Virus record (IMG/VR): IMGVR_UViG_3300020122_000353
Location: 1-48,839 of that record
Direction: 5' to 3' (one strand)
DNA from: a virus
Length of the DNA stretch: 48,839 nt
Within the stretch, counting starts at the first letter, position 1. Each line of letters begins with the position of its first letter. This document shows positions 19,279-44,199 of this stretch, piece after piece. A program made the position numbers and the translations under genes. The notes under the pieces are model-generated. The model had not been told where the DNA came from, did not search any database, and was given only the letters and a program-made list of their open reading frames with translations.

Positions 19279-19348
19279 TGGCGCGGTCTGAGAGAATCGA
19301 ACTCTCCTGGCGGGTTTTGGAGACCTGCCCGCTCCCAGAGCAGACCGT
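19279..19348 (-). tRNA. tRNA-Trp (CCA anticodon) with shortened D-arm
   Basis: Minus-strand tRNA: acceptor ACGGTCT / AGACCGC (six of seven pairs, A1 opposite C72), D-arm GCTC-TGG-GAGC with only a 3-nt loop, anticodon loop CTCCAAA inside GGTCTCCAAAACC (the tRNA-Trp core), T-arm GAGAG-TTCGATT-CTCTC, discriminator G and encoded CCA. It is 67 nt without CCA, about 6 nt shorter than usual, all missing from the D region. It lies antisense to the rightward operon, between the dNMP kinase and the gene at 19544. Confidence 0.75.
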
Positions 19349-22714: not shown

Positions 22715-22884
22715 CCCACAAAGAGATGCTGCAACTAATGCTTCGACATGCAGCCATCCCCATGACCGATCATGAAGACGGCTCAATCTCCACTGAGCGC
22801 ATGGCCTTTAGCGATCGAATCCAGTTTTGGTTCAACGCTCACGGCGACCTAGAGGTAATGATGCATGCTGATAGGGTTGAATAG
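22711..22884 (+). CDS. Small hypothetical protein
   Basis: 57 aa from ATG 22711 (TGGAGGTGAA upstream, ATGA overlap). Helix (HKEMLQLMLRHAAIP) then a beta hairpin. Last gene before the AT-rich intergenic region. Confidence 0.55.
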   Translation: MTHKEMLQLMLRHAAIPMTDHEDGSISTERMAFSDRIQFWFNAHGDLEVMMHADRVE

Positions 22885-23080
22885 TACCAGGGGGATGTAA
22901 ATGGTTGCATGCCACGGCTGTTAAACGCTAAAAGCTTACTTACCATACACGGTCCGTAAACTTTTTGTAAAATCATACAATATTTGGTCCAAAAGGACCT
23001 ATTTTGGACTTGGCGGCGGGCCTACACTCAGAAAAAGACGCCGGGTCGGCATATACACGAAACCACGAAAGGGCACTCTT
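22885..23080 (+). other. AT-rich intergenic region with alternative hairpins
   Basis: 196 nt with no credible gene. Contains GTAAA repeats, GGTCC-AAAA-GGACC (22986-22999) and an overlapping alternative stem TCCAAAA-N7-TTTTGGA (22988-22994, 23002-23008), plus the shared motif at 23054-23070. Lies just ahead of the replication genes: an origin, attenuator or promoter region are all possible. Confidence 0.5.
23054..23070 (+). repeat. Shared upstream motif, copy 2
   Basis: TACACGAAACCACGAAA, differing from the copy at 19953-19969 at one base. It sits 10 nt before the GTG start at 23081. Confidence 0.5.
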
Positions 23081-23272
23081 GTGAACAGTGGACCATGGCC
23101 TGTACCCATCCCGGGGGCGGAATACGTTAAGCGCGCAGTCTGGCCGGAACTCAAGTACTTAAGCGACAACTGGCCGTCACTGCGAGGGCTGGTTTGCGAA
23201 CGAATGGCAGAACTGACGCCCAAAGACGGTAGCTTTGGTGTCGTACGTGCCGGACGGGGGATGTATTGGTAA
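23081..23272 (+). CDS. Small hypothetical protein
   Basis: 63 aa, GTG start behind AAAGGG. Trp/Pro-rich N-terminus (GPWPVPIPGAEYVKRAVWPE). No family recognised. Confidence 0.5.
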   Translation: MNSGPWPVPIPGAEYVKRAVWPELKYLSDNWPSLRGLVCERMAELTPKDGSFGVVRAGRGMYW

Positions 23273-23273
23273 A

Positions 23274-23351
23274 ATGCGCGAATACATACCGGATTTACCC
23301 GCCGACAAACATTTGTACAATTGCCCTTTGGGCAAAGGAGGACCCACATGA
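23274..23351 (+). CDS. 25-aa leader-peptide-like ORF
   Basis: Starts 1 nt after the previous stop and overlaps the next ATG (ATGA). Its last codons run through the hairpin TTGCCC-TTT-GGGCAA and the AGGAGG ribosome site of the next gene, so its translation could open that site. Confidence 0.4.
   Translation: MREYIPDLPADKHLYNCPLGKGGPT
23321..23341 (+). promoter_or_regulatory. Hairpin abutting the ribosome site of the 23348 gene
   Basis: TTGCCC (23321-23326), loop TTT, GGGCAA (23330-23335), immediately followed by AGGAGG (23336-23341). Could regulate initiation by coupling or protein binding; the GGA next to a stem is also a CsrA-type context. Confidence 0.35.
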
Positions 23352-23851
23352 TCGCGTACCACGGAGACCACGCTGTCAAAGACGGCATACTCGCACAGTT
23401 ACAAGCACACCACGATGCTGATGAGATCATAAAGGGGGTTTATTGGCAGAGAGGTAAAGGCTGCGCCGTAGGCTGCACCATTCACTCGGGTGAGCACGCG
23501 GAGTACGAACCTCGTTTCGGTATTCCACAGACCCTCGCACGCCTGGAGGACACAATATTCGAAGGCTTGCCAAACGAGATTGCTAAGGGGTGGCCGCTAC
23601 GCTTCATGCGCGCCATTAAACCTGGCGCCGACCTTTCTCTCATACAGTGGCAGTTTTTACACTGGCTCATGACGGATGAAAATGTGAACCCTGGCATCAA
23701 CCATCCGAGCGTGAAAGACGCTGTGGCGCAATTAGCTACTCTACTAGCCGCGTGTAGTAAGGGCGATCCCATCGGAGAAGAGGCGGCGCGGTCGGCGGCG
23801 GCGTACGTGAAAATGGCAGAAAAGCTGGTCGAGTTCCTGGAATCCGCCTAG
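23348..23851 (+). CDS. Conserved hypothetical protein
   Basis: 167 aa from ATG 23348 with AGGAGG upstream. The pattern MIAYHGD ... GVYWQRGKGCAVGCTIHSGE ... RLEDTIFEGLPNEIAKG ... GADLSLIQWQFLHWL resembles a conserved protein found in many phages and bacteria without assigned function. The two Cys in the GKGCAVGC motif may be functional. Confidence 0.7.
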   Translation: MIAYHGDHAVKDGILAQLQAHHDADEIIKGVYWQRGKGCAVGCTIHSGEHAEYEPRFGIPQTLARLEDTIFEGLPNEIAKGWPLRFMRAIKPGADLSLIQWQFLHWLMTDENVNPGINHPSVKDAVAQLATLLAACSKGDPIGEEAARSAAAYVKMAEKLVEFLESA

Positions 23852-23854
23852 GCT

Positions 23855-25381
23855 ATGTCATTTCCTCCGGGGAGTTACCTGTTCCAGCTAAAGGACGACT
23901 CCAAGGAGCCTGCGGTTCCACGTGCACATCTTATGGCTGTACCTGACGACCAATTTGTGCAGGTTGGGCAAAACGTCGGAATTGCGCTCAAGGTAAAGGG
24001 CGTCACACAGTTCATCTGTGCTGACCTCGATCGCCCCAATGCGGAATTGGAAGCGAAGTTGACGGCTGAAGGAACGTGGTCGCAGGCGACGCCGCACGCG
24101 CGGCATTGGCTGTTCCTCCCGCCGCCGGGGTTCCGAGGCTCTAATAGCAAGCTGCCGATGGGCAGCGGGGACCTCAAGAGCGACGGCTATATCGTCGCTC
24201 CGGGTTCACATGTTGTCTGTGACGGCTCGCGCCACGCGGATGGGCGGGCGTGCGGAAAGACCGACTACGTCCATGACGGACCAGACGAACTCAAACCCGC
24301 GCCGCCGTGGCTGCTTGACCTATTTGTAAAGCATGACGCAAAAAATCCGGTCGAGGAAACCAGTGGGATCGCCAAGGGCAACCACGACAACTTTCTTTTC
24401 GGGGTTGCGCGCTACGTGCGCCAAGAGTGGGGCCTCTCTGAGGCAGCCGTGCAGAAAATGCTCGTAAAAGGCCCTAGAACGGTCTTAGAGGGCGAGAATC
24501 CCAACGACCCGTACACAGAGTCATCCATGCGGCGGATCGCGCACAGCGCGGCTTCCAAAGCTCCGTTAGAGCCGACGGTAAAACTTTCACCGGCCGGTGT
24601 AACCTCCGCTTTTGAAATACCAATGGTGGGGGAGCCCATCCGGTGGTGGGTTTTCGGCTTCGTCCCCCGTGGGCGTTATATCGGGCTCTACGGTCCAGGG
24701 GGTGCGGGTAAGACGACGTGGGGGGCTTGGCTAGCTGCCCAGGTGACACAGAAAGCTCCATTTCTTTACGTGGGGGTTGAAGAGGACGGAACAGAGTTTG
24801 TGCCAAAGGCACGGCTTGCCGGCGCGGTCGCAGCAAACCTTTACAGTCTCGACGATCCTATGACGTACACTTTCCCACGCGACGCAGGTCGCCTGGAGGA
24901 AATGATCGCAGCGATGGGCGTGGGGGTTGTGTATTTTGACAGCATCTACAACCATTTTAGCGCCGATGAAGGGTTGATGGTGTCCGAGCGTACGCGAAAG
25001 ATACTTAGCTCGCTTGACTTGGTCGCTAGGAAGACAAAGTGTACAATTATCGGCGTTTTTAATGTTAAACGGGATGGCACATTCAGTGGGTCCGAAGAGA
25101 TGCGGAGCGTTCCGCGTGTCCTTCTGCGGGCGCGGCGTTTGAAAGACCGTCCGCTTAGAATCCGCGTGGAAAAATCCAATCTCGATAACACAGGTACGGT
25201 TATGCAGTTTGGCGTGCGCTCCGTGCCGCTCGCGGACGTGGATACCGGCGAGGTCCAGCTCGTGGAGGACGCGGGGGGAGTTTTGCGTCCGTATGATATT
25301 AGAGTCGCCGAACGTATTGTCGATATTAGCGAAGAGGATGCGGATGTAGACGAATCAGTATTCCCTGAGACACACCCCTGA
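23855..25381 (+). CDS. PrimPol-ATPase fusion: primase-helicase
   Basis: 508 aa. Residues about 35-150 match the bifunctional primase-polymerase domain: QNVGIALKVKG, CADLDRP (D57, D59), TPHARHWLF and DGYIVAPGSHV. Residues about 265-470 are a RecA-like helicase ATPase of the RepA/AAA_25 type: Walker A GPGGAGKTTW (280-289) and Walker B VVYFDSIYNH (D362). It would prime and unwind at the phage fork. A stem spans its stop codon. Confidence 0.8.
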   Translation: MSFPPGSYLFQLKDDSKEPAVPRAHLMAVPDDQFVQVGQNVGIALKVKGVTQFICADLDRPNAELEAKLTAEGTWSQATPHARHWLFLPPPGFRGSNSKLPMGSGDLKSDGYIVAPGSHVVCDGSRHADGRACGKTDYVHDGPDELKPAPPWLLDLFVKHDAKNPVEETSGIAKGNHDNFLFGVARYVRQEWGLSEAAVQKMLVKGPRTVLEGENPNDPYTESSMRRIAHSAASKAPLEPTVKLSPAGVTSAFEIPMVGEPIRWWVFGFVPRGRYIGLYGPGGAGKTTWGAWLAAQVTQKAPFLYVGVEEDGTEFVPKARLAGAVAANLYSLDDPMTYTFPRDAGRLEEMIAAMGVGVVYFDSIYNHFSADEGLMVSERTRKILSSLDLVARKTKCTIIGVFNVKRDGTFSGSEEMRSVPRVLLRARRLKDRPLRIRVEKSNLDNTGTVMQFGVRSVPLADVDTGEVQLVEDAGGVLRPYDIRVAERIVDISEEDADVDESVFPETHP

Positions 25382-27243: not shown

Positions 27244-27462
27244 ATGAACGGTAAACGCATAAAAGAAATACTATCCACATTTTGGATTTGCGTTGTGGAC
27301 GAAAGCCTGCGGAAGTACATATTTGAACCTCCGGTAAAGGGCACGGGGTATATAACGGCGGTGTTTTGTCGAGCGGCGTCTCACCCAGCGGGCATGACTT
27401 GGTATTCTAACGGAATGGAACCCGATTACACATGCAAAGGGTGCGGGGATAACTGCGGGTGA
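27244..27462 (+). CDS. Small Cys-rich hypothetical protein
   Basis: 72 aa from ATG 27244 (TAGGAGTG upstream). C-terminal CKGCGDNCG suggests metal binding. Overlaps the start of the polymerase gene by 4 nt (GTGA). Confidence 0.55.
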   Translation: MNGKRIKEILSTFWICVVDESLRKYIFEPPVKGTGYITAVFCRAASHPAGMTWYSNGMEPDYTCKGCGDNCG

Positions 27463-29747
27463 TTTGCCCCGACTGTCGTGCGTGCCCATTGTGGGAGAAC
27501 GCGCAAAATGTGGGGATAGGCGGGCGCGGTGCTGTTCACCCGGAATTTTTGATCGTGGGGCAGAATCCAGGATCGCAGGAGGATTGGGAAGGCCGCGCGT
27601 TCATCGGACCGAGCGGAAAACTTCTCACCGCGATGCTCCGCGATGCGGGCTATGACCTCAAGAGCGTTCGTGTTACAAACGCAGTCCGCTGCCTGACGCC
27701 CAAAAACAGACCGCCGGAACCAAAGGAGATTGAAGCGTGCCGACAACACCTTATAGCGGAGATACAAGAATGCAAACCCTCTGTGATTATTGCATTAGGC
27801 GACATTGCATTGAGAGCATTGTGCCGGACTTCGGGTATGCGAGACAAACGGGGGAAAAACTTCCCGCTTCACGAGTCAATGCACTATACATGCAGCGTTT
27901 ATCCTATGTATCATCCTGCGTATATACTCAGGTATCCGCAAGCCCGTGCGACCGTTGTGGCAGACCTGCGGAAAGTGCGCGACCGAACTATTACCGAGGA
28001 GACGGTGCAGTGGGAATGGTACAAACCGGAAAGGACGGATAAGGTTTATGCCGTGGACATCGAGACGGACTTTGACTGGGAAACCAAGACGGGCGGAGAA
28101 AATATCGTTCAAGTGGCCGTCGCCTCTAGCACCGATGGGTGCCTTGTTTCGCGTGCTGAATGGCCAACCCTTATGGCTGAAGTATCAAAGGGGCAAGTTG
28201 TTGGTCATAACTCGTGGTGGTTTGATTGTCAGAAAGTTAGAGCCGCTGGTGTGCATATGCCTTGGGGACGAGATACACTGGTTCTAGCTTACCTTATGGA
28301 CGAAACACAACCGCTCGGGCTTGAGGCTTTGAGCGTAAAATACCTAGGTGTGAAAGGGTGGAAAGATGAAGGTCACAACAATGCGAAGGACCCTGTTAAG
28401 TTCGCTCTGTACAACGCACGGGATGCTTGTTACACACTTCGCCTGCATGACTACTTCCTTGCGAACCTTGGTGCCAATCGTGCGGGCGTCCCGCGCGTTA
28501 GAATATCGGATGAAATCCTACTACCGGCCAAACTAGCCCTAGACGAATGCACGCGGCGCGGCAACTTCGTGAACCTCGCGGCTGTGGAAGAGACCGAAGC
28601 CCGCTGCCTAGCCATCGCGGACGAAAAGGTGAAACAATTAAGGGAAATAGCTGACGACGGCGCGTATGCTGAAGCTAACCTATGGAATTTTGAAAAGACG
28701 CGCAATCTTAATCCTAATTCTCCACTTGAGGTGGGGCGTTGGATGGAGCTGCACGGGATGTTCTTGCCCCGCACGCAAACAGGCGTACCACAAACGGATA
28801 AGGCCGCGCTCTCGCTGTACCGGGGCAACCCGTTTGTAGATGCCCTGGAAGAGTACCGCGCGGCGGGTAAGCAGCTTTCAACGTACGTCAAGCCATACAA
28901 AGCGGCGGCGCAGAACGCGGACGGTAGGATTCATCCGGAATACACCATCGTCCGCACCGTCGTCGGGCGCACGAGTTGTAAGAGCCCAAACCTGCAAAAC
29001 CTGCCGCGCGAGCTAAAGAACTTCATCTCTGCGCCGCCGGGTAAGGTGCTGGTCTCAGCCGACTATAGCGCCCTGCACATTCGTCTGTTTGCGTGGGTGG
29101 CCCAAGAGCCGCGAATGTTGGCTGAGTACGCAAAGGACCCGCACTGGGACCCGCATTTGTTTTTCGCGAAGTCCTTTTACGCCAAGGACGAGATATCCAA
29201 GCAGGAGCGACAGATTGCTAAGTCGGCAAACTTTTCGCAGCTCTACCTGGGGACGGGAGAAACGCTCCAAGATTATGCCTCAAAGGTGGGCCTCAAACTT
29301 GATTTAGGTCTGTGTCACCAAACGCATTTGGGGTGGCACGGAGTGTTCATTGGAGCGAAGCCGTTTTACGGCCGCGTGGAGCGCGAACTGCGTGAGAAGG
29401 GATACGTGGAGACGGCGGTGGGGCGGCGCAGGCACTTCGGTGATGTCTCGTTGATGAACCGCCAATCGTTCAACGCGGCGCTTCGCGAAGCGGTGAATTT
29501 TCATGTGCTTGGGCTTGAGCCGGACATAGCTCTTCCAGGGCTCTCTGCATGTCACAAAGCGGGGCTGCCGGTGTGCGGCTTTATCCATGATAGCGTTTTG
29601 CTGGAGTTTGATTCGGAGAAGGAGTACCTAGAGAACAAGGGACTAATAGCCCAATGCATGTGCGAAGCGCCCGTGTTACTGTTAAAGGAGAGGTTTGGTG
29701 TGGATATGAATGTTCCTCTGGTCATAGAGTTTGAGGTGAAGAAGTGA
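27459..29747 (+). CDS. Family 4 UDG-like domain fused to family A DNA polymerase
   Basis: 762 aa, GTG start. Residues 1-170 resemble family 4 uracil-DNA glycosylases, as in phage SPO1 polymerase: CRACPLW, GQNPGSQED (34-42, with Q35 where family 4 has Glu), TNAVRC, NRPPEPKEIEAC and YHPAYILR; Cys pairs fit a 4Fe-4S site. Next is a DEDDy 3'-5' exonuclease (AVDIETD; GHNSWWFD; YNARDACYTL). The polymerase has DYSALHIRL (D535, H540 in place of Glu), R584/K588/F592/Y596, and GFIHDS (D711, S712 in place of Glu). Confidence 0.9.
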   Translation: MICPDCRACPLWENAQNVGIGGRGAVHPEFLIVGQNPGSQEDWEGRAFIGPSGKLLTAMLRDAGYDLKSVRVTNAVRCLTPKNRPPEPKEIEACRQHLIAEIQECKPSVIIALGDIALRALCRTSGMRDKRGKNFPLHESMHYTCSVYPMYHPAYILRYPQARATVVADLRKVRDRTITEETVQWEWYKPERTDKVYAVDIETDFDWETKTGGENIVQVAVASSTDGCLVSRAEWPTLMAEVSKGQVVGHNSWWFDCQKVRAAGVHMPWGRDTLVLAYLMDETQPLGLEALSVKYLGVKGWKDEGHNNAKDPVKFALYNARDACYTLRLHDYFLANLGANRAGVPRVRISDEILLPAKLALDECTRRGNFVNLAAVEETEARCLAIADEKVKQLREIADDGAYAEANLWNFEKTRNLNPNSPLEVGRWMELHGMFLPRTQTGVPQTDKAALSLYRGNPFVDALEEYRAAGKQLSTYVKPYKAAAQNADGRIHPEYTIVRTVVGRTSCKSPNLQNLPRELKNFISAPPGKVLVSADYSALHIRLFAWVAQEPRMLAEYAKDPHWDPHLFFAKSFYAKDEISKQERQIAKSANFSQLYLGTGETLQDYASKVGLKLDLGLCHQTHLGWHGVFIGAKPFYGRVERELREKGYVETAVGRRRHFGDVSLMNRQSFNAALREAVNFHVLGLEPDIALPGLSACHKAGLPVCGFIHDSVLLEFDSEKEYLENKGLIAQCMCEAPVLLLKERFGVDMNVPLVIEFEVKK

Positions 29748-32618: not shown

Positions 32619-32977
32619 ATGAGAAAGCGTTTGTCGCTAAGGCGAAAAAACGCTTAGAGGCAGAGGTTGGTGGTCTCTGGATCACCTTCCCCCGCACGCG
32701 GTTTGCGCGGTCCGGAGTGAGCGACTTACTTGGTTGTGTAAACGGACGATTCGTGGCGCTGGAATTTAAGAAGCCGGATCACAGCAACCACTACGGCGTA
32801 ACTCCCACGCAAGAAAAATTCTTAATTGCCGCTACCGAGAACGGCGGCCTCGCGCTTACCGTTTGTTGCGAAGATGATTTGGAAAATGTCGTATGGGCCC
32901 TTACTGTCGGGTCTCATACTCAATATCACGGCGCCGCTTCTGCGACGTCGGCATCTCGAAGTGTGACCCAAAAATAA
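32615..32977 (+). CDS. VRR-NUC nuclease (Holliday-junction resolvase-like)
   Basis: 120 aa. Core signature GVSDLLGCVNGRFVALEFKK with D, E and K in PD-(D/E)XK order, then TPTQEKFLIA, matches VRR-NUC. Likely resolves branched DNA before packaging. Its 3' end overlaps the convergent gene by 77 nt and no terminator is visible. Confidence 0.8.
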   Translation: MNEKAFVAKAKKRLEAEVGGLWITFPRTRFARSGVSDLLGCVNGRFVALEFKKPDHSNHYGVTPTQEKFLIAATENGGLALTVCCEDDLENVVWALTVGSHTQYHGAASATSASRSVTQK

Positions 32978-35621
32978 GGTTGAGGGCGTCGTTCATCTGA
33001 GAAAGTCCTGGGGGCTCGCGGTATGTGAGCCCTTGTTTTTGTAGCCACTCCGCCGCGCCTGGAATGGCTTTAAGTGCGGGCACAATCTCTTGCCACGCCG
33101 GTATGTATCCCTCTCCGGCTTGTTTGGCCTCTTGGATCGGCGATTTGCCTTCGAATATAGTTTTCAGGGCGGCGGACACGAGCGGCCCAATTGTTGCGGG
33201 AGAAGTAAGGTAGTCGCCGGGCTTGAACACCATACGTGCGGCGTCTTCTACCGGGCCGCCGTAGTGGAATGTGCCTGGTTGGCCCTCACGGTGAAGTTCT
33301 TGGTTCACGTCTTCCGATGCGCGGGCGCGGGCCTCCACACGTTGCGGGGCGCGGGTAGCCGCGCGGGCGACGGCTCGCGGGGTTATAGACGTACGGAACG
33401 CGACGAACGGCCCGCCGAGCGCCTGGAGTGCGGCCGTGAAGCGACTGATGTTGCGGTAATCTCCGAGGTCATCACGTATGCGCTGCGCTTTATCGTATTC
33501 AGAGGACAAATCGCCCGCCGATTCTCCTAGCTCTTTATCCAACTGGTCGAGTCTCGCCTGGCGATACCCAAGTTCCATCCGTTGCAGTAGCTTCTGCTGC
33601 CCCAGCTTGTTCGCGATGTACGTAATGGGGCCTTGCGCGTCCCGCAAGTAATCTATAGATACGCCCATGCCCTTCAGCCGAGTTAGCTGGCTGTCCGAGA
33701 GGCCCTTAGCCGCGTACGCGAGACCTTTTCCAAAAGCCTCCGGGCCTCCCGCTAGTTCCGCCAAGTCTCCGACGTTCTTGAGCCCGTGGGGCAGGGGGTT
33801 GAGCTGGATGCCGCCGCGCGCCAAGCGCCGTGAGGTTTCCGTCCACCCCGGGATATCGTACCGCTTCGGGGAGTGGTCGAGCTGCCGTACGATCGCATCG
33901 ACGTTTTCAGCCGACGCAGGGATGCGTGAGCCGCCGTATTGCAAGAGGTAGTTTTTGGTGTCCGCGTCAGTCATGCGTTGGCGTAGGACGTTCCGGCCGA
34001 GTTTCCATCGATTGAGGATACGTTCGTACATATCCTCATGGACCTGCTCGTCCGGCCTTGCGTGCTTCTCAAAGCCCGCGAATTCCTGTTTTTTCTTCTC
34101 GCCGTACCCCTGGAACAGTTCCATGTCGGCGTACGACTTGGGCGGCTTTGGGCTTATTAACGTTACATAATCTTTGCGCGGGTCGTACTTTACGAGGCCC
34201 AACGGTTGGGGGAACTTTTCGCGGTCTTCATGGGTCGGCTGAAACCCGAATCGCGAATCGGATTCCACTTTGGCCCGCATATCCGGTGTTCCATAGCGCC
34301 ACGCTTCGCGCATGGATTCTTGCCGTACCTCGGGGGGAAGGTCGGCAAACGTCTTAGCGTTACGAATCTGAGACTCGTATTTGCGTGCCATGTCGTTTTG
34401 CCGCTGCCCCTCCTCGCGCATGAGGTCGATGTTCTTTTCCTCAATGCTGAGGCGTGCGGCTTTCCCATGCTCGTCCAGGAACGGATCAAGGCCTGGGCGC
34501 GTTGCGAAAACTTTGTGCATGAACGGTTGGATGAGACCCTCGTGGTACTCTTTGGCAGCTTTTGCTGCGTTCGTGAGGCCGGGGACCTTAGAACCGACCG
34601 CCTCCGCACTCTTCGCCGCAAGCTCCCACGCGCTACGTGCGGTATTCGCCATCTTCGCCTCGCCGATCAACGGGACGTAGGTCAGCGGGTCGGTGATAGC
34701 CTGGGCGGCAAATACCTTGCCGACCCTGCCAAGGAATTGCTCATTGTGCGTCGGATGACCAACCGCGTGCATAATCTCGTCACTAAGTTTGCCCACGAGG
34801 CCCGCTCCTTCCCCGACAGTTTCCGCCGCCTGATGGACACCGGGCAGAGCTTCTGTGCGTTGTTCAAGAGCCACTTGCCGCTGCTCATCAAATGGTGTCA
34901 CGGTGGCCCCAATGTCGCCGGTTAGGGCTCCGGCTACCGCGCGTTGCGGCGCTCCCAGAACGGCGTTGATCCCTCCCATAACGTTCGTACCTGCCATGAG
35001 AGCGCCATGAACAAGCCCCTCTATGGGGTTTAATCCGGCTGCTTGTTGGGGCGTTGGTGGTACGTGAGGAGGCGCACTTTTACCGATATCGGGGGGCGCA
35101 TGTTTTACCGCCACGGGGGCATCCCAGCCCGGCGGGGGAGTCGTCTGCGGCCCTGCGGTTGCCTGCACATACGCGCGCGTCTCGGCTATATTGGGTACGT
35201 TTCCTCCCGCTGCGTCTACCGCTCCCGGGCCGGCATTGTACGCCGCTGCCGCGAGGCGTTGGTCACCCTTGTATCGTTTGAGCTGCTGCCCAAGGTACTT
35301 AAGACCGGCGTTGATATTTTGTTCGGGGTTCGTAATGTCATTCCCGACGCCCATCTCCTTGAACGTGGCGGGCAGGAGCTGATAGATACCGCGAGCACCC
35401 GCGCTTGACGTGGCGGTCGTTGGATCGGGCGTACCGCCGCTTTCGCGCCCGCGAATACGCTGCGCGAAGTCCTCCGGTACACCGTACTGTTTGGCGTACT
35501 TGGCTATGATAGCGTTGGTGTTATCTTGCGGGGGAGTAGCGGCATTCCACCCAGGGGGTGGAGACGATTGCGCAATGGGTGCGGCTGAATCCCACCCCGG
35601 CGGGGGCGTACTTTCCGGCAC
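32901..35621 (-). CDS. Virion lytic transglycosylase / ejection protein
   Basis: 906 aa. The N-terminus has PPPGW repeats (three copies), then residues about 35-150 form an SLT transglycosylase: catalytic E60 in RGRESGG, GARGIYQLLPATF, NAGLKYL, AAYNAGPGAV. The remaining 750 residues are helical and charged, with a Gly/Ala segment near 200-235 that may insert in membrane. This is the layout of T7 gp16-like or other internal ejection proteins: cut peptidoglycan and form the DNA conduit. Last gene of the late unit. Confidence 0.8.
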   Translation of the reverse strand: MPESTPPPGWDSAAPIAQSSPPPGWNAATPPQDNTNAIIAKYAKQYGVPEDFAQRIRGRESGGTPDPTTATSSAGARGIYQLLPATFKEMGVGNDITNPEQNINAGLKYLGQQLKRYKGDQRLAAAAYNAGPGAVDAAGGNVPNIAETRAYVQATAGPQTTPPPGWDAPVAVKHAPPDIGKSAPPHVPPTPQQAAGLNPIEGLVHGALMAGTNVMGGINAVLGAPQRAVAGALTGDIGATVTPFDEQRQVALEQRTEALPGVHQAAETVGEGAGLVGKLSDEIMHAVGHPTHNEQFLGRVGKVFAAQAITDPLTYVPLIGEAKMANTARSAWELAAKSAEAVGSKVPGLTNAAKAAKEYHEGLIQPFMHKVFATRPGLDPFLDEHGKAARLSIEEKNIDLMREEGQRQNDMARKYESQIRNAKTFADLPPEVRQESMREAWRYGTPDMRAKVESDSRFGFQPTHEDREKFPQPLGLVKYDPRKDYVTLISPKPPKSYADMELFQGYGEKKKQEFAGFEKHARPDEQVHEDMYERILNRWKLGRNVLRQRMTDADTKNYLLQYGGSRIPASAENVDAIVRQLDHSPKRYDIPGWTETSRRLARGGIQLNPLPHGLKNVGDLAELAGGPEAFGKGLAYAAKGLSDSQLTRLKGMGVSIDYLRDAQGPITYIANKLGQQKLLQRMELGYRQARLDQLDKELGESAGDLSSEYDKAQRIRDDLGDYRNISRFTAALQALGGPFVAFRTSITPRAVARAATRAPQRVEARARASEDVNQELHREGQPGTFHYGGPVEDAARMVFKPGDYLTSPATIGPLVSAALKTIFEGKSPIQEAKQAGEGYIPAWQEIVPALKAIPGAAEWLQKQGLTYREPPGLSQMNDALNLIFGSHFEMPTSQKRRRDIEYETRQ

Positions 35622-35623
35622 GG

Positions 35624-36928
35624 CTAGGGCACCTGTGCGTATGTGCCGTCAGAATATTTGACCCACGTCGCGCCGCCTATCGTCCGCCGCTCTAGTTCAT
35701 GCTTCTCGCCACTCCCGAAGCCGGAAGGTGTAGCCCCGGCTGCTCCGGTCTGCGCGCGTATCATTCCCGCCTGCGCGGAAGAGGCCTGTTGCACCGCCGC
35801 TCCGGCCATGGGGGTTAGGGTATTTATTTGATCTTTGAGCGCGTCGATTCGGCTTTGAATGTCCGCCGGTACCGGCTGGAATGCCGCTGTGTACCCGCGC
35901 GCGACATTTTCGAGTGAATCGAGGCCGCTTTGTGCCTGACCAAGCTGCGTTTGCAGAAACTTGCCGTACTTCAATAGCCCCGCTGCGCCGGTTGGCCCTT
36001 GCATTTGTGCGTACACTTGGAGACGTTGTTGCGCTACGTTAAGGTTTCCCAACGTGGATTTGTTCTGCACGTCCCACCGCGCAAGCTGCCCCTGGGTCCT
36101 AGTATCAAGGTCGCTCACGCGCCGAGCTTCTAAACCTGTACGTACCTGTTGGTCCGCTAACTTACCCCGATAATACTGGGCCAGTCCCTGCTTGTACCGA
36201 ATCTCCTCTTCGGGCTTCAGGATGCCGCTTAGGAGGAGTTTTTGGGTTTCTAAACCAGCCCGTTGGTCCATTGCTTGTTGTAGCGTTGGGTCGTTTATAA
36301 GCTGCGAAGGGTCAAAACCGGCCTTCTTAAGAATAGGAGCGTACATTTTAACAAGGGCGGCGAAGCCCTCGGGCCCGGCACTCGCCGGGTCGCCAACCTT
36401 TAGCATCTCTTGTCGCAGACCGGTTAGCACATTTGATACCTCGCCAGCCGTAACAGGGAGGGAGGCATCCTGGGAGAGGAAGCTTTTCGGCGTGCCCATA
36501 ATGCGTTGGGCCGTCATTATGGTAGACCTTTGCTCAGGGTCTTTCGAGGCGTAGAAGTCTAATTCTTGCGGGGTCAATTCCCCAAATTGTTTCCCAGGTA
36601 TAAGAGCGTTAACGTCAAGACGTTGACCCTGGTCATCTTTGACGATCGGGGCGGGGAGACCACGCCGCTTGTAAATATCCGTGACGGCCTTAAGCGCCCC
36701 TGGGTGCGTTGCATATGCACTGTTCGCCTGTGCCATCTGCGCGATCTGGGCAAGGCGCTTATCGTCCAATTCGGATAGTTGCGTTTGCGTCTGTTCCCGC
36801 GAAAGTTGTTGTTGCTGCATGGTATCCGGCATTTGGCCGATCGCTTGGCCGATCTGACCAAGCGGAGACATCATACCCTGCGTAGCGGGAGCAATGGGCG
36901 CTAGGACGCCGATCTGCGGAACTGCCAT
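35624..36928 (-). CDS. Coiled-coil internal virion / ejection protein
   Basis: 434 aa, Gln-rich and helical with long coiled-coil stretches (QQQQLSREQTQTQLSELDD; LQMY-type heptads in the middle) and an Ala/Gln-rich C-terminus. No enzyme motif. Placed between the ATP-grasp gene and the transglycosylase protein, like partners of P22/T7 ejection complexes. It starts right after its own promoter-like site, with no good ribosome site. Function inferred. Confidence 0.6.
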   Translation of the reverse strand: MAVPQIGVLAPIAPATQGMMSPLGQIGQAIGQMPDTMQQQQLSREQTQTQLSELDDKRLAQIAQMAQANSAYATHPGALKAVTDIYKRRGLPAPIVKDDQGQRLDVNALIPGKQFGELTPQELDFYASKDPEQRSTIMTAQRIMGTPKSFLSQDASLPVTAGEVSNVLTGLRQEMLKVGDPASAGPEGFAALVKMYAPILKKAGFDPSQLINDPTLQQAMDQRAGLETQKLLLSGILKPEEEIRYKQGLAQYYRGKLADQQVRTGLEARRVSDLDTRTQGQLARWDVQNKSTLGNLNVAQQRLQVYAQMQGPTGAAGLLKYGKFLQTQLGQAQSGLDSLENVARGYTAAFQPVPADIQSRIDALKDQINTLTPMAGAAVQQASSAQAGMIRAQTGAAGATPSGFGSGEKHELERRTIGGATWVKYSDGTYAQVP

Positions 36929-36950: not shown

Positions 36951-36991
36951 ATAAAAACGACAGCCCACCTCGGCATGTCACCGGGTGGGCT
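36951..36991 (-). terminator. Hairpin terminator after the ATP-grasp gene
   Basis: Minus strand AGCCCACC / GGTGGGCT (36991-36984 and 36969-36962), 14-nt loop, then GTCG and TTTTTAT. The T-run begins 4 nt after the stem, so termination may be partial. About 100 nt of spacer separate it from the upstream stop at 37092; I see no gene in that spacer, only a GTGCC / GGCAC stem. Confidence 0.65.
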
Positions 36992-37091
36992 CGCCCCGTA
37001 CGTTCGGAAGATCGACAGATGTTCCTCGAGCGGTTCACTTGCGTTCAGCGTTGTCGTTGGAGGGTGCCCTGCGACTAGGCACAGTCAGAGT

Positions 37092-38420
37092 CTAGCGTAT
37101 TCCGGGGTGAAGTTCAAATCCAAACTCTAGGACTTTCTTCCCATCCTCTACGATACGATCATAGCCGTCCGTTCGAAATCCCAACCCGGCCACATCGTCA
37201 CGCAGCGCATACGCCGCATCCAAGGCCTCCTCCGAGGCTTTCGCGAGGCTTTCAGACTGTCCGTAGGCTACACCGAGCGATCCCGTAGGAGAGGCGCTTT
37301 CTAATTCTTCCTCGCCCCGGCACATATTAGTACCGATGAAGCCGCCGGACCACAGGGATTCCACCTCCGGGAACGTCTTGCCGCGCGCCGAGTCCTTGTG
37401 GCCGCTGCCAATGTTGTCGTTCGGGAAAGGGTTTACGTATAGGTGCACAGCATACCCGAGGTCAGTGCTGGGGGCAGCCGGTTCCCCGCCGGTTGCTATG
37501 TCCCACAGGTGACGCCCAAGGTCGGGCAGGAGACGCATAGAAGCCATCTCGGAGTAGTACCCCAGGCGCGGCGTCCACTCGAGGAAGTACGCACGCCCGT
37601 TCGGGGACGCAATCACGTTCACGTCGTAGAGACCAGGCGGGGCCTGGTGACGGCGAAACCCTAGCGCAAGGTGTTCCCAGCGCAGGGCCTCGGCTATCTT
37701 CGGGCGGTCTTCTTGGTAGAACCAAACGGCGTTAAATGCGCAACCTGTCGCTGATCCTAAGTCATTATTCAGGAGCGCCTTATGTTCAATTGTACCCTCG
37801 TACGGGCCAACCCACCGTTGCCCATTCCACCAACGGGCTGTACTAAGGGCAACTCCCTCCATCTTTTCCTGAACGACCCATTGTCCCGCTCCGCCAATCC
37901 GCTTCTTCAGGGCCGCTGCACGCTTGGCTAGGTGTTCCCCGGATACAGCTTTAGATGTCGCGTCCTTATCCACATCTGGACTGTCGGGCTTTAAGTACGT
38001 TTCAACCGGCCCCAACGACGGCGCCCACGCGATCACTTCGTCCAGGGAAGAAAACTCCTGGTACGGCGGGGAATCCATCCCAAATTCATCCGCGAAGTCT
38101 TGTCCAAACGAGCGGTCTCCTTCAAGCTTGTCCATGAACGAGCCGCCGCCGATGGTGGGCAGACCCCAACGACGCGCTTGGTCGGCGAGTTCTCCCATGC
38201 CGGTGAAATCAAAAACCGCGAGCGTGGGTTCCCCAGCCGTAGCGCTGGCTTTCGCCTCCGCTAAAAGTTCCGGCCATGACCCTATCTTTGGGACCAAGCC
38301 GTTTCCGACGCGCTTATGTGGCGTCTCTTTGATGTACATACGTACGGTATGGCCTTCGTCCTGGAGGCGCAACGCCCACGAGAGCGATTCCCCCCACCGC
38401 GAGGCGTACGCGACGAACAC
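37092..38420 (-). CDS. ATP-grasp enzyme, PurD-like
   Basis: 442 aa, GTG start 1 nt after the upstream stop. An N-terminal Rossmann-like domain (MFVAYASRWGESLSWALRLQ), the segment GGGSFMDKLEGDRSFGQDFA resembling the PurD LEGSKaFaK motif, the lysine-bearing VETYLKPDSPD, the acidic strand GQWVVQEKMEGVALS, IEHKALLNNDLGSATGC and metal-site-like YFLEWTPRLGYYSEM fit a phosphoribosylamine-glycine ligase-like ATP-grasp. Substrate unknown. It lies between two ejection-protein genes, not in a nucleotide cluster, so purine synthesis is doubtful; a peptide/amide ligase is possible. Confidence 0.7.
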   Translation of the reverse strand: MFVAYASRWGESLSWALRLQDEGHTVRMYIKETPHKRVGNGLVPKIGSWPELLAEAKASATAGEPTLAVFDFTGMGELADQARRWGLPTIGGGSFMDKLEGDRSFGQDFADEFGMDSPPYQEFSSLDEVIAWAPSLGPVETYLKPDSPDVDKDATSKAVSGEHLAKRAAALKKRIGGAGQWVVQEKMEGVALSTARWWNGQRWVGPYEGTIEHKALLNNDLGSATGCAFNAVWFYQEDRPKIAEALRWEHLALGFRRHQAPPGLYDVNVIASPNGRAYFLEWTPRLGYYSEMASMRLLPDLGRHLWDIATGGEPAAPSTDLGYAVHLYVNPFPNDNIGSGHKDSARGKTFPEVESLWSGGFIGTNMCRGEEELESASPTGSLGVAYGQSESLAKASEEALDAAYALRDDVAGLGFRTDGYDRIVEDGKKVLEFGFELHPGIR

Positions 38421-38421
38421 G

Positions 38422-39552
38422 CTATCTCTGCTGCGGGCCGAGCGCCCCGATACGCGATTGATACGACATGCCGGGGTTGGTCATCTCCGACCCCGTAAGA
38501 CCGTTGAAGCCCCCCGTGTTGGGGTTCTGCGCGCCGCCAAGTCCGCCGTACATACCCTGCCCCTGCGGTGTGCGGAAGTTGAGGCTCGGAGTCGGCGTAA
38601 AGCCGCCCAGGCCGCCAAATGTTTGTGCGTTACTTGGGGTCTGAGAAAATGACGTAGGACTTGGTACCTGTGGGAACTGGAAGCCTAATCCCATTTGCTG
38701 CTGCCCGCTCATGGCGTTGTTTATTTGCCCCTGCATAGGGTTAGCCGACGTGACGGCGCCTGTCGGCCCCACTGACCCCGGCCGTTGTGCGTTCTTTCCG
38801 CCCAGGCTTCCAGCAGCGTTACCGACACCGCCAAGCGCGCTCGTGAACGGGTTACCGATCGCCTGGGCGTTAGACGCTGCCTGAGAGCCTTGCTGGCCGA
38901 ACATGTTGGCTAACTGCCCAAATGAGCCCAGGCCAGACTGGAGCAAACTACCCCCCTGCCCGAACAAACCTTCCAGGGCGGAAAGGATGCCACCCTGCTG
39001 CTGATTTTGCAGCCCGGCAAGACTTGCAGATAGGCCCCCTGCGGATTGTAGGGCACCAAGTCTGTTCTGTGCTCCTTGGGCGCCGAGTTGGATCGCCGCG
39101 TTTTGTGCACCCTGAGCGTTTTGACCGAGGAGGTTCTCAAACAGGTTATTTTGGTTAGCCACACCCCCGGAGGTCCCGCGCAGGGTGTTGATCACGCTTT
39201 CACCACCCTGCCCAAGGGTATTGGTTAGCGCATTCATCTGTTCCGGTGCGAGGCCTTGGTAGTTCTGAAGTGCGCTTATACCTTGGCCCACATTACCAAA
39301 AAATGGGTTTGATGGCGCACCATACTGGCCCATAAGCGTGTTGGTAAGGCTCTGCGAGCTTGGCCCAACGCCCCCCTGGCCGAAATAGTTTTGCAGGAGG
39401 CCGTTGAGCACCCCCTGCTCGGCGCCGACAACCTGCCCTTGACTTTGAGCGGCCTGCTGCGCGGCGGCGTTTGCTGCCTTTTGGGCATTCTTACCGGAAT
39501 TTGCCCCGACGAGCGATCCGACGCCGGACGCAATTGGGGCAGCGGCCCCCAT
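38422..39552 (-). CDS. Gly/Gln/Asn-rich internal virion protein
   Basis: 376 aa, dominated by Gly, Gln, Asn, Ala and Ser; N-terminal helix (KNAQKAANAAAQQAAQSQGQ) and repeated LGQ/LGG-type patches, Pro-rich C-terminal part. Resembles low-complexity ejection proteins of P22-like phages (gp7 type). Location in the ejection block supports this. Function is inferred. Confidence 0.6.
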   Translation of the reverse strand: MGAAAPIASGVGSLVGANSGKNAQKAANAAAQQAAQSQGQVVGAEQGVLNGLLQNYFGQGGVGPSSQSLTNTLMGQYGAPSNPFFGNVGQGISALQNYQGLAPEQMNALTNTLGQGGESVINTLRGTSGGVANQNNLFENLLGQNAQGAQNAAIQLGAQGAQNRLGALQSAGGLSASLAGLQNQQQGGILSALEGLFGQGGSLLQSGLGSFGQLANMFGQQGSQAASNAQAIGNPFTSALGGVGNAAGSLGGKNAQRPGSVGPTGAVTSANPMQGQINNAMSGQQQMGLGFQFPQVPSPTSFSQTPSNAQTFGGLGGFTPTPSLNFRTPQGQGMYGGLGGAQNPNTGGFNGLTGSEMTNPGMSYQSRIGALGPQQR

Positions 39553-39557
39553 TAAAA

Positions 39558-39589
39558 TTTACCAACCATTTACATATTATATTGGTAAA
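39558..39589 (-). other. Inverted repeat between coupled late genes
   Basis: TTTACCAA and TTGGTAAA (39558-39565, 39582-39589) enclose an AT-rich loop that on the minus strand contains TATAAT, followed by TTTTAATG at the next start. May be a weak terminator, RNase site or internal promoter. The ribosome site of the next gene overlaps the stem (GGTTGG). Confidence 0.4.
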
Positions 39590-39977
39590 CCAGGTGCGTA
39601 GCAATGTCACCGAACGTGCGTTCTATGGCCCGGTTCATTGGTTCGTTTTCTATGCGGCTCATAACCACAAGCGAAAGTTTGCGCGCATCAGCGGTGAGCT
39701 TAATCTCTTCGATTGCTACATATGCGGCTAACTTGCCCCACCGTCCCGGCCACGTGTAAAAATCAGATACATTGAACTTTCCGTTCGGCTCCTGCGCAAC
39801 GCCGAACACGCAGTAAACTTGGTCTCCCCGAGCAATGCCGATCCAGACTTGTCCCTGCGGCTGTGTATTCTCCGGGTAGCCAAGCTCCTTGAGGTGTCTG
39901 GCAAAAAACAGCCGTACTATCGGTCCATCTCCGGGGAGCAGTATTGCTCTAAAGCCATATTTTTCAGCTAGGGTCAT
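39570..39977 (-). CDS. GNAT-fold-like protein (T7 gp13-type candidate)
   Basis: 135 aa from ATG 39977 (overlap with the upstream gene). The strand-helix order GQVWIGIARGDQVYCVFGVA, VSDFYTWPGRWGKLAAYVAI, LSLVVMSRIENEPMNRAIER, FGDIA is typical of GNAT acetyltransferases. A GNAT-fold virion/assembly factor exists in T7 (gp13), and this gene lies just before the ejection genes, but enzymatic activity is uncertain. Confidence 0.55.
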   Translation of the reverse strand: MTLAEKYGFRAILLPGDGPIVRLFFARHLKELGYPENTQPQGQVWIGIARGDQVYCVFGVAQEPNGKFNVSDFYTWPGRWGKLAAYVAIEEIKLTADARKLSLVVMSRIENEPMNRAIERTFGDIATHLVYQYNM

Positions 39978-40254
39978 AATCCCCCCTTGCAGCGCGAGCA
40001 AGTATTTGGGCGTGGCACCACAGTGGTGCATCAATTGGAAGACCGCCGACGGGCGCGCACCAGCATGCGAGAACTTTTCCAGCGAGTTCGTTCTTGGCCG
40101 CAGATATAAGTTCTGGCGTGGCGTGCAAGTAGTCGAGGTACCGCTGCAGTGCTTCGTGCCGACCAAAGACCTTCGCAGAGTAGGGGTTTCCCCATTTTGT
40201 TGGGCGACCAACGTAGACGTCGTACGAATCACGTTTATAGTGGACAATGTTCAT
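39964..40254 (-). CDS. DUF4326 protein
   Basis: 96 aa. YDVYVGRPTKWGNPYSAKVF, then LAGKVLACWCAP and WCHAQILARAA match DUF4326, a small family of unknown function with conserved Cys/His (CWCAP...CH). It is a non-structural-looking enzyme or binding domain placed inside the tail/ejection operon. Overlaps both neighbours. Confidence 0.8.
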   Translation of the reverse strand: MNIVHYKRDSYDVYVGRPTKWGNPYSAKVFGRHEALQRYLDYLHATPELISAAKNELAGKVLACWCAPVGGLPIDAPLWCHAQILARAARGDYDPS

Positions 40255-40772: not shown

Positions 40773-42760
40773 ACGTCATTCGGAGCCGGCACGAGGTTAA
40801 TTCGCGTTGTACCGTACGCTTCGACCGCCCACACCTGCGCCGGTGGTATGAACGAGGGACTAACAACGGTATTAAACGAGACGGAAAGACCTGCCAGGTA
40901 GCCGCACATACGATCTGCATCCACATCAATTATATGTGTTGTGAACCCATTTCCCAGGTTGAACACTTTCGTATCCGTATTACCATCCACAGTCAGAACA
41001 ACCGTTGCCGATAATCCCGGCTGTACGGGGGCTGTAATGAGCAAATGGGTAAATGACATCTGGGAGCCAAGGGACTGATCGTCGGCGGGTCCGGGCGATC
41101 CGCTGCTCCGTAGTGGACGGGTCCATGCCACATTTTGTGGGGCACCCAAGTCTAAGTCTCCTCCGGAGAACCACTGGTCAATAAAGTTGGAATTGGGCCT
41201 TACAGCCAAAACCTCTCCAGAATCCGCTGTAGTAGACCCGAAAACCACGGGGTTACTAACCGTTGATACCGCAGCCGGATTTGCAGCGTAAGGTAAGGGC
41301 CCCACCCACTCACCTGCCGAAGTATTATAACCAAAGGTTTGGCCCAAGACGGGGAAGGATAGCCAGTAAGTATGATGGCTATAAAATCCAACAGCACCCG
41401 TAATATCCGCATCGGTCAAAGCCTCCAGTGTTGCACGTATGCACTCGCTTAAGTAGACGAGCTGACTTCCGTCGGTGAGGTTCACCGTACGATCGCTCGC
41501 TAGGAAGAAACACGCGGTTCCTGTGTCCGTGGGTGCGACAATTATGCTGTTCGGCGACCGGCTGCCTTTGTTAAAGAACGGCTGGGCAACAAAGTTCGTT
41601 TGGTCCGTACCGTAGATAATGTGCATGGACTTTGATTTGAAGAGAATAGCAACAGACGATAACGACACACCGCGTACGGGCCAGTCGCCATATTGGGCCA
41701 CGTAGTTCGTGTTACCGCTCGGCGTGTCGGAGTTTCCGACGAGCATCACATTTCCGCCGTTTTGAATCGGTTGGCTGTTGAATTCCCATGGTCGGCCCGC
41801 GTTGGAGAACCATAATTGGCATTGCGGCTGGTTATTCGTCGATGCGTTTTGGACAACGAGAAAATTCCACGTGCGCTCCTGGTGCCGAAATATCGCACCA
41901 AGATTTGTCGCGGCCACAGGGGGGGCGTCTCGGTTAAACACCAACGTTGCGTTGCCCGCGATCGACGCGTCTGTTGCGTTATCGGTGTACGTCACGTTCG
42001 TTGTAAGATTTGTGAGCAGATACCATATACCGGTAAGTGAGCTTTGGCGGTAGACGTTTGTCGTGTACGTCGCGCCGTCAGCCATGCTTCCCGCGAACGT
42101 TCCTGTTATCTGTGCGGCATTGGAGCCGTTAGAAACGATAGAGTACGTTGAAAGCGGGTTACTGCCCGGACCGGTTGGCGAAGTCTCCTGCGAGAATCCA
42201 CCGTTGGGGGAAATAACGAGCTGCGTGAAGGCGTAGTAGTACGTTGCGGCGGGGAGAACTCCGGCTACGGCGTTGACGGCATAGCTTTGCACCGTACCAT
42301 TGGGCGCAGGGTAGTGCCATAGATAGGTCTGTGTCGGATTTGCGGCACTGTATTGGTGCCCCGCGTTGTCATATATGACGTTTCCGAACTGTACGGCCTG
42401 GCTAAAGAAAGTTGCGTCCGTCGCTCCGCCGAAGTTCAATAGTATCTGACTTCCGGCGAGCGGATCGTACATGAACCGCGAGAAGTTCGTCGAGAGCTTT
42501 GTTACCCCAACCACCTGCTGATTATTTGGGGCGGGTGTGTACGCCGCGATGTTCTGAATCGTCGAACCAATACCCCCGACCGTTATATTCGCGAGATTCG
42601 TGCGCCCCCGCGCCGCCACGAGAGCCAAGGGCAGGCGGTAGGGGTCCGCCGCTGTACCCATAGAGGCTCGTCCCGGCTGAATATCAATGCCGGCCGATAG
42701 GGTATCTATACCCTTAAACGGCTGAAGAGAGATCAGGTTGCGGAGACGTTCGCTTGCCAC
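40769..42760 (-). CDS. Tail nozzle / DNA-stabilisation protein
   Basis: 663 aa starting with GTG. Beta-rich throughout with propeller-like repeats (for example RTWNFLVVQNASTNNQPQCQ, SSVAILFKSKSMHIIYGTD, AVGFYSHHTYWLSFPV). N-terminus RNLISLQPFKGIDT is like tail tubular or gp10-type proteins of podoviruses. Size and location fit the nozzle or P22 gp10-like plug that closes the portal. Confidence 0.65.
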   Translation of the reverse strand: MASERLRNLISLQPFKGIDTLSAGIDIQPGRASMGTAADPYRLPLALVAARGRTNLANITVGGIGSTIQNIAAYTPAPNNQQVVGVTKLSTNFSRFMYDPLAGSQILLNFGGATDATFFSQAVQFGNVIYDNAGHQYSAANPTQTYLWHYPAPNGTVQSYAVNAVAGVLPAATYYYAFTQLVISPNGGFSQETSPTGPGSNPLSTYSIVSNGSNAAQITGTFAGSMADGATYTTNVYRQSSLTGIWYLLTNLTTNVTYTDNATDASIAGNATLVFNRDAPPVAATNLGAIFRHQERTWNFLVVQNASTNNQPQCQLWFSNAGRPWEFNSQPIQNGGNVMLVGNSDTPSGNTNYVAQYGDWPVRGVSLSSVAILFKSKSMHIIYGTDQTNFVAQPFFNKGSRSPNSIIVAPTDTGTACFFLASDRTVNLTDGSQLVYLSECIRATLEALTDADITGAVGFYSHHTYWLSFPVLGQTFGYNTSAGEWVGPLPYAANPAAVSTVSNPVVFGSTTADSGEVLAVRPNSNFIDQWFSGGDLDLGAPQNVAWTRPLRSSGSPGPADDQSLGSQMSFTHLLITAPVQPGLSATVVLTVDGNTDTKVFNLGNGFTTHIIDVDADRMCGYLAGLSVSFNTVVSPSFIPPAQVWAVEAYGTTRINLVPAPNDV

Positions 42761-42900
42761 TAGTCACCCCAGCAAAGAAGCGGACCACTGTCGACGTCCC
42801 AGCTAACGACCGGCGCGTGTTCGACAGGAATTTGGCACTCAGCACAGGGCATTGCGTGGGATATGCCGTGCGTACAGCTAGTCGGAGACGAGTTTTCCAT
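42760..42900 (-). CDS. 46-aa zinc-knuckle-like protein
   Basis: ATG 42900 lies inside the GroES stop region; TAG overlaps the GTG of the nozzle gene. C9, H11, H15, C19, C22 in SCTHGISHAMPCAEC resemble a metal-binding knuckle. Filling the gap between two coupled genes supports it. Confidence 0.5.
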   Translation of the reverse strand: MENSSPTSCTHGISHAMPCAECQIPVEHAPVVSWDVDSGPLLCWGD

Positions 42901-43204
42901 GAATCGCACTTTCCGGTAAGCAGAGGTAGTGGTTGCCGTCGATGGGTATGTTTACGCCTTCGTACTTCGAATATATCACCGTGTCTCCCTCAGCGGATTC
43001 CATTGGCTCGCGCAAAACGAAAGGTTTGTACGGCGGCGCATCAAACCCGTGAAACCCAGAAAATTTCCCCGCCCCCACAGCCACGACGCGCCCTTGGTTG
43101 GGCTTTTCCGTGTGGGCAGCGGACAGGATGATACCTCCCGCGCTTTTTTCTGGGACCTTTTCCGGATCAATCAAAACTTTGTTCCCAAACGGTACGAACT
43201 TCAT
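42878..43204 (-). CDS. groES: Co-chaperonin GroES (Cpn10)
   Basis: 108 aa from ATG 43204 (ATGA overlap; an ATG at 43216 adds four residues). KFVPFGNKVLIDPEKVPEKS, AGGIILSAAHTEKPNQGRVV, AVGAGK and the C-terminal DTVIYSKYEGVNIPIDGNHY, LCLPESAIHGKL match GroES closely, including the mobile-loop GGI. It would work with host GroEL to fold phage structural proteins. Unusual position between tail genes. Confidence 0.9.
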   Translation of the reverse strand: MKFVPFGNKVLIDPEKVPEKSAGGIILSAAHTEKPNQGRVVAVGAGKFSGFHGFDAPPYKPFVLREPMESAEGDTVIYSKYEGVNIPIDGNHYLCLPESAIHGKLVSD

Positions 43205-44199
43205 AGCATAAACCATTCTTCGTCAGCGACGCGGCGTCGGGCCCCCTGTGAGGACCACAGAATCTCAACAACCACTTGTGATATTCGTGCATTCGTCGTG
43301 TCCTGCCCTAGCACCTCCATGGCAAATTGTGAAACCCGTGGTGGAAGCGGAACGATAAGCTCGACGACCCACTGAGAAACCCGCGCGAACGCTGTGTCCT
43401 GCGACACCAACTCAACCGCCTCTTGAGAAACGTGGGCGTTGGCGGTGTCTTGCCCGACGGTTTCTACGGCTACCTGGGATACCTGCGCGTTCGCGGTGTC
43501 CTGGGAGATTATCTCGGCCACGTCCTGGGAAATAAGGGCGTACGGAGACGAACTGCTCAGTATGACCAGTGCCGCAAGGTTATTAGTATCGCTCGGCGAC
43601 CCAGTCCATGCGGCTTGTGCGGTCACATTTTGCGGTGTGGCGGCTGTGGCGGGTCCCTGTTGGACCTCAAGTTGCGCGTATTGCCCACCGGTGTTGTTTA
43701 GGTTGGCAACTTCGGTCCAGCCACCCTGGGCGGCCACAGTTGCGGCATCGCGCGCGGCAAAAAATCCGTACGGGAGGTCACCCGTTGTTGGCGCCCAAGA
43801 TGTGGGCGAGTTACCTACAACCTGATTTGTCCCAAACGTGGAGAACCCGAGAAGTGTGGGTATGACTGAATTGGCGCCCGAAGCTTCGACGTAAAATGCC
43901 GATGCGAACGTGCTGCCCGAGAAATTTACCGTCGCGGATTGAAGCCCGGCTATTGTCCCCGTAAGGCGGTAAAACGCAATAATTACGTTTCCTTCCATCA
44001 GGTTAGCTTGAAGCGCCAAACCCCCGGAAACCGAAGATATTGTTACGTTCGACCCGCCGCCTACGGGGTTGGCGTCCCACGCAACGCCGAGCAGGAGGGT
44101 GTTGCCGTTTGTCGGTGCCACGCCGAGCGTGACCGTCTTCGACGCGGACAGGGAACCGCCTGTGGCGAATGTAGCGGATTGTACAGGTGTAACGGCCAT
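43201..44199 (-). CDS. Structural protein with C-terminal SQ repeats
   Basis: 332 aa. N-terminal two thirds are a beta domain (TFATGGSLSASKTVTLGVAP; NTLLLGVAWDANPVGGG) similar to phage tail/appendage domains. Residues 221-316 are six copies of a 17-residue unit of the type ISQDTANAQVSQVAVETV. Such repeats in virion proteins often build rigid beta or trimer stalks. Followed by groES. Confidence 0.65.
   Translation of the reverse strand: MAVTPVQSATFATGGSLSASKTVTLGVAPTNGNTLLLGVAWDANPVGGGSNVTISSVSGGLALQANLMEGNVIIAFYRLTGTIAGLQSATVNFSGSTFASAFYVEASGANSVIPTLLGFSTFGTNQVVGNSPTSWAPTTGDLPYGFFAARDAATVAAQGGWTEVANLNNTGGQYAQLEVQQGPATAATPQNVTAQAAWTGSPSDTNNLAALVILSSSSPYALISQDVAEIISQDTANAQVSQVAVETVGQDTANAHVSQEAVELVSQDTAFARVSQWVVELIVPLPPRVSQFAMEVLGQDTTNARISQVVVEILWSSQGARRRVADEEWFML
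43252..43539 (-). repeat. 51-bp tandem repeat (17 aa) in tail protein gene
   Basis: Six imperfect units encoding SQ-x-x-x-E-x-x-x-QDTA-x-A-x-V; SQ dipeptides at residues 224, 241, 258, 275, 290 and 307 (spacing 17,17,17,15,17). The DNA copies have diverged more than the collagen array. Confidence 0.8.

Follow-up and report, generated by a model that had tools for sequence, protein, structure and literature searches.

The product of the gene at nt 37092-38420 is probably an active carboxylate-amine ligase of the ATP-grasp type, from a family of PurD paralogues, predicted to join a small acid to an amine other than phosphoribosylamine (PRA) late in infection, and not a GAR synthetase. The window, that is, the whole stretch of DNA analysed (48,839 nt, IMG/VR virus record IMGVR_UViG_3300020122_000353), comes from a phage and carries genes for an SU10-type portal and adaptor, a terminase, and a fusion of uracil-DNA glycosylase (UDG) with DNA polymerase A. 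Comparisons of structure and sequence make it a well supported reading that the ligase has a PurD-like fold and yet is not PurD. The superfamily is an ordinary one and the fold is recognisable; within it, the family is a widespread and distinct phage branch.

37092-38420, minus strand: PurD-like (non-GARS) ATP-grasp ligase gene with a GTG start, identified by open reading frame, homology, structure model and fold

The gene is an open frame at exactly these coordinates and specifies 442 aa. A preliminary description, made from the sequence alone, had proposed a PurD-like ATP-grasp enzyme here, and this proved to be a real gene, with PurD-type sequence matches and full-length homologues in hundreds of contigs, which exclude a chance resemblance. 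The sequence matches of the window protein point weakly to PurD. PurD chains in the PDB match it down to E 4e-7, the NCBIfam purD model gives E 4e-9 and 35.6 bits against a curated cut-off of 288 (TIGR00877, 288 bits), Pfam GARS_A scores 23.7 bits, under its threshold of 27, and a PHROGs search returned no match.

An AlphaFold model built on 68 sequences has a mean pLDDT of 92.3, and the top 15 Foldseek matches of this model in the PDB are all PurD. With VIA-align, the PurD of A. aeolicus (2yw2) aligns with a Z of 34.5 over 400 residues, so that the three-domain PurD fold is present; PurK is the next enzyme (Z 25), and PurK and PurT together span Z 22.5-25. The protein has no Pfam match to RimK or D-Ala-D-Ala ligase, and neither appears among the 50 fold matches listed, although they could rank lower. 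The Foldseek viral library contained distant ATP-grasp matches only (best TM 0.44). Together with the fold, the retained E100, K144, K214, E281 and R285 place the protein in the ATP-grasp superfamily.

The active site of PurD is known to use K103, K143, E185, E192 and K214 as ATP ligands, D212, R287 and E292 for glycine, and E100 for Mg (PMC8880213). These positions were followed through a residue table of 62 distinct viral, 43 cellular and 5 true PurD rows, from which the following sites of the window ligase are taken.

38112-38123, minus strand: E100-R103, with the Mg/ATP Glu kept and Arg at PurD Lys103 in every member examined
37779-37787, minus strand: E212-H-K214, with Glu at the glycine ligand Asp212 and Lys214 kept
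37740-37742, minus strand: C227, in the counterpart of the PurD loop GPNTGGMG
37617-37625, minus strand: D266-x-N268, nearly invariant in the family
37551-37580, minus strand: E281-x-T283-x-R285-L-G287-Y288-Y-S290, in place of PurD E-x-N-x-R-F-G-D-P-E

E100, K143 (K144 here), K214 and R287 (R285 here) are kept in all 62 viral rows and in the window ligase. The same rows are equally uniform in their losses: Lys103 has become Arg and Asp212 Glu, the Asp of GDPE is replaced by Tyr, Trp, Val or Phe and its Glu is gone, the N-terminal GGREHAL loop is lost, and E-x-N reads E-x-T. Of the PurD signature the window ligase retains the Arg of RFGDPE, while Asp212 and both acidic residues of GDPE are missing, the latter replaced by Tyr (Asp) and Ser (Glu). 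The 43 cellular rows show the same changes, bar one or two exceptions at single sites. D266 is found in 61 of 62 viral and 41 of 43 cellular rows, and the D-x-N pair (266/268) is absent from the five PurDs. Position 227 is Cys in the window ligase and in 51 of the 62 viral rows; the remaining 11 viral rows have Glu, and the cellular ones either Glu or Asp.

A single-sequence viral scan with the window ligase found no relatives, and only one annotated phage record was seen to carry one, MW202796 (ct2os315). This relative shows 24.6% identity in the tblastn match, has the full length and can be aligned from one end to the other. Its gene (nt 42140-43471; L002:20001-21332) is unannotated in the GenBank record. 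An alignment of these two sequences led to 12 loci, and a ten-row alignment drawn from them was used for a wider search, which placed the family in at least 492 viral contigs and at 246 genome loci; 80 of each were kept. The genome loci are mostly from haloarchaea, Patescibacteria and DPANN archaea. Fusion was considered for very long cellular ORFs (L147, L094) and rejected, because their extra length comes from GC-rich frames that stay open upstream. In about ten relatives, of 520-535 aa, the ligase is followed by a fused HAD-like DxDGT domain at the C-terminus (for example L005:4382-4708 and the C-terminus of L004), with weak Pfam support.

In a tree of 111 rows, the five true PurDs form one separate branch (support 100), the window ligase groups with 51 viral rows (support 100), and most cellular rows make up a separate group (support 89), within which fall the Halorubrum and Haloferax loci recovered here. 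The window ligase sits on a long branch (1.91), which leaves its exact neighbour unsure; it also differs in a few places from the consensus of the family (Gly147 to Ser, Gly229 to Phe), and these two features together make a reduced activity of this particular member possible. Nine cellular genomes were tested: five hold a true PurD (387-500 bits) as well as a second copy (about 97-122 bits), and the other four have the weak-type copy only. The neighbourhoods of the cellular paralogue in haloarchaea gave no functional clue. In Patescibacteria, an LPG_synthase_C-like aminoacyltransferase lies close to it in three loci (L098:7026-7928, L168 and L163) and a SET-domain gene in two, in each case too few to use.

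The surroundings of the gene in the window are as follows.

38422-39552, minus strand: Gly/Gln-rich protein of 376 aa, the upstream gene, whose stop lies one base before the ligase GTG
36953-36995, minus strand: terminator-like hairpin and T-run (-25.9 kcal/mol, z -2.8), 3' of the ligase gene
35624-36928, minus strand: Gln-rich protein of 434 aa, a possible internal or ejection protein, downstream of the ligase
32901-35621, minus strand: protein of 906 aa with an N-terminal SLT transglycosylase domain (Pfam, PHROG), a probable ejection protein

The position of the ligase between a Gly/Gln-rich internal protein and two ejection proteins, as first described, stands in part. The upstream protein is indeed rich in these residues (G 19.9%, Q 13.6%), with no family match in Pfam or PHROGs, and the 906-aa protein fits an ejection role (SLT transglycosylase, E 7e-22; PHROG match 'internal virion protein with endolysin domain'); the 434-aa protein gave no informative match in either database. 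A terminator directly after the ligase gene is borne out by the strong hairpin and T-run, whereas the new promoter said to follow it was not found by a sigma-70 scan, which in total returned hits at chance level. A search of viral contigs for relatives of three window neighbours (the 434-aa, SLT and 337-aa proteins) found none. Elsewhere in the window, nt 27459-29747 encode the uracil-DNA glycosylase domain fused to a family A DNA polymerase, and the proteins of cluster c13 in several relatives have an N-terminus that is likewise UDG-like. A DUF4326 ORF (nt 39964-40254, E 4e-18) overlaps the start of the frame at nt 39570-40247, which therefore probably starts further in; a GNAT-like reading of nt 39570-39977 was dropped, since neither Pfam nor a profile comparison with the GNAT cluster c72 gave a match. 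A tRNA-Trp gene is located at nt 19279-19348.

Members of the family repeatedly lie in late modules. A virion or lysis gene was identified within four genes of the ligase in 43 of the 62 distinct viral rows, and no neighbour was identified in the other 19; an SU10-type portal was detected in 34 of 46 viral records that carry the family. The orders seen in the late block include head genes, lysin, ligase and virion protein; an ejection transglycosylase followed by the ligase; a very large internal protein followed by the ligase; terminase, ligase and portal; and an SU10 adaptor followed by the ligase. A peptidoglycan-hydrolase type lies directly upstream of the ligase in 23 of 60 rows, against 4.1 expected under random order, a comparison that counts related loci as independent and whose significance should not be taken at face value. 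These hydrolases belong to five non-homologous clusters, of M15, LAS-motif (c31), Tlde1 and lysozyme-like types, c31 being assigned to the LAS-type peptidases solely by the motif H-x6-D...H-x-H. A profile comparison of the M15-type cluster c12 with c31 found no link.

ATP-grasp enzymes convert a carboxylate to an acyl phosphate and then pass the acyl group to an amine. The phage ligase would activate a small carboxylic acid, probably an amino acid, in this way, since Arg285 and an acid at position 212 are kept; the pairing of glycine with PRA is unlikely because Glu292 and the GREH loop are lost, and the acyl group may instead be joined to a different amine late in infection. The most likely class of target, on weak support, is a cell-envelope peptide or precursor or a lysis or ejection protein, in view of how often a peptidoglycan-hydrolase gene adjoins that of the ligase. 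Gene context favours peptidoglycan and lysis slightly over one particular virion protein, although some members adjoin terminase, portal or adaptor genes. Late carboxylate-amine ligation with an envelope or virion target is the best reading, and the modification of a virion protein or surface compound, as originally suggested for this gene, is possible. A bolder version seems distinctly unlikely: in a large group of uncultivated phages, the phage-specific clade marked by C227 would catalyse, late in infection, a form of amide ligation not described before, with a peptidoglycan peptide, its precursor or the lysis machinery as the target.

The ligase might alternatively make or edit a small metabolite or a modified nucleotide through a phosphorylated intermediate, with no relation to the envelope. 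This is conceivable though rather improbable: folds of the GARS, PurK and PurT kind bind small ribotides, and some of the 520-535 aa members have the HAD-like DxDGT tail (weak Pfam support), but that fused domain is confined to a minority and a nucleotide-metabolism neighbour is not consistently near the ligase. Tagging of a specific virion or ejection protein with an amino acid or a short tag, in the manner of RimK, is suggested by the place of the window ligase between the Gly/Gln-rich protein and the probable ejection proteins, and by several relatives (L009-L013, L017) in which it directly follows putative internal virion proteins of 1386-1744 aa. No partner protein is common to the roughly seven gene orders, however, in which terminase, portal or adaptor is sometimes adjacent, and the closest fold kin (PurD, PurK and PurT) act on small molecules, so we regard such tagging as unlikely. 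Membership of the phiEco32/LUZ24-type amidoligase cluster, which would remodel the host surface, is very improbable. Phages of that type pair their ATP-grasp gene with Amidoligase_2 and GATase genes (PMC3890496), and both partners do occur about 9 kb from the ligase in L084, the nearest tree neighbour of the window, yet they are absent from the window itself and from 45 of the 46 viral records. The Amidoligase_2 and GATase_6 genes of L084 (record G051) are located at nt 22776-24133.

A genuine PurD, encoded as an auxiliary metabolic gene with which the phage would raise purine production in the infected cell, is the least probable reading of all: the fold is of GARS type and 65 of 68 family members match GARS_A in Pfam, so that pipelines would call them PurD, but the score is below the curated cut-off in each of the 46 family-bearing viral records, GREH and GDPE are lost and Asp212 is Glu in every viral row, and cells with the sister copy also have a true PurD in five of nine cases tested. 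None of these 46 records holds a PurD-grade gene anywhere (0 of 46 over the cut-off) or purM, and the one weak purF match, on a stretch where GATase_6 overlaps, was not accepted. The early doubt about purine synthesis is accordingly upheld, as a clear GARS with its PRA and glycine residues kept, which would have spoken against it, is not what was found (35.6 bits, GREH and GDPE lost); the idea of a morphon carrying a metabolic gene, in the purine sense, is unlikely, given the lack of purM and of an accepted purF.

The preferred reading, a late carboxylate-amine ligase distinct from GAR synthetase, has consequences for annotation. Pfam recognises the family as GARS, yet it fails the tests for PurD, and it is likely to be misreported as viral PurD; some of the 'purD' metabolic genes called in viruses may belong to it. 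Viruses have been claimed to carry or enrich PurD/GART-type genes (PMC11360552, PMC12043954, PMC11097641), and the genes behind these claims deserve a second look for the GDPE and GREH motifs. With a good model, invariant residues and a cellular sister group in Patescibacteria and haloarchaea, the family is also a tractable object of study.

Compared with known systems, the ligase shares with PurD/GARS (EC 6.3.4.13) the whole-chain fold, the core ATP-grasp residues, the HK of DHK and the RxG of RFGDPE. It differs in the lost GREH loop, in Arg for Lys103 and Glu for Asp212, in motifs of the GYxA and GYPT types in place of GDPE, in E-x-T for E-x-N, and in the new D-x-N. PurK and PurT have the same three-part ATP-grasp layout but are clearly further away in fold than PurD. 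The phiEco32/LUZ24-type cluster likewise includes a phage-encoded ATP-grasp protein, for which a role at the host surface has been suggested (PMC10580990); its member in UFV-P2, however, has 291 aa and is part of an early module (PMC3890496). Also related are the 'extra' PurD-like proteins of haloarchaea, Hlac_1553 and rrnAC0307, which were judged in 2011 not to be GARS, a conserved Asp being lost (PMC3261824). Compared by their published description (PMC3261824), they resemble the ligase in two ways, since RLGDPE has lost its Asp and the loop at the N-terminus is divergent, and the family studied here shows the marks of such a non-GARS paralogue: the GDPE Asp is lost, the N-terminal loop is divergent, and cellular members occur beside a true PurD in five of the nine genomes tested. 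Unlike the phage ligase, the haloarchaeal paralogues are chromosomal, with no virion genes among the conserved neighbours seen, and carry Glu at position 227.
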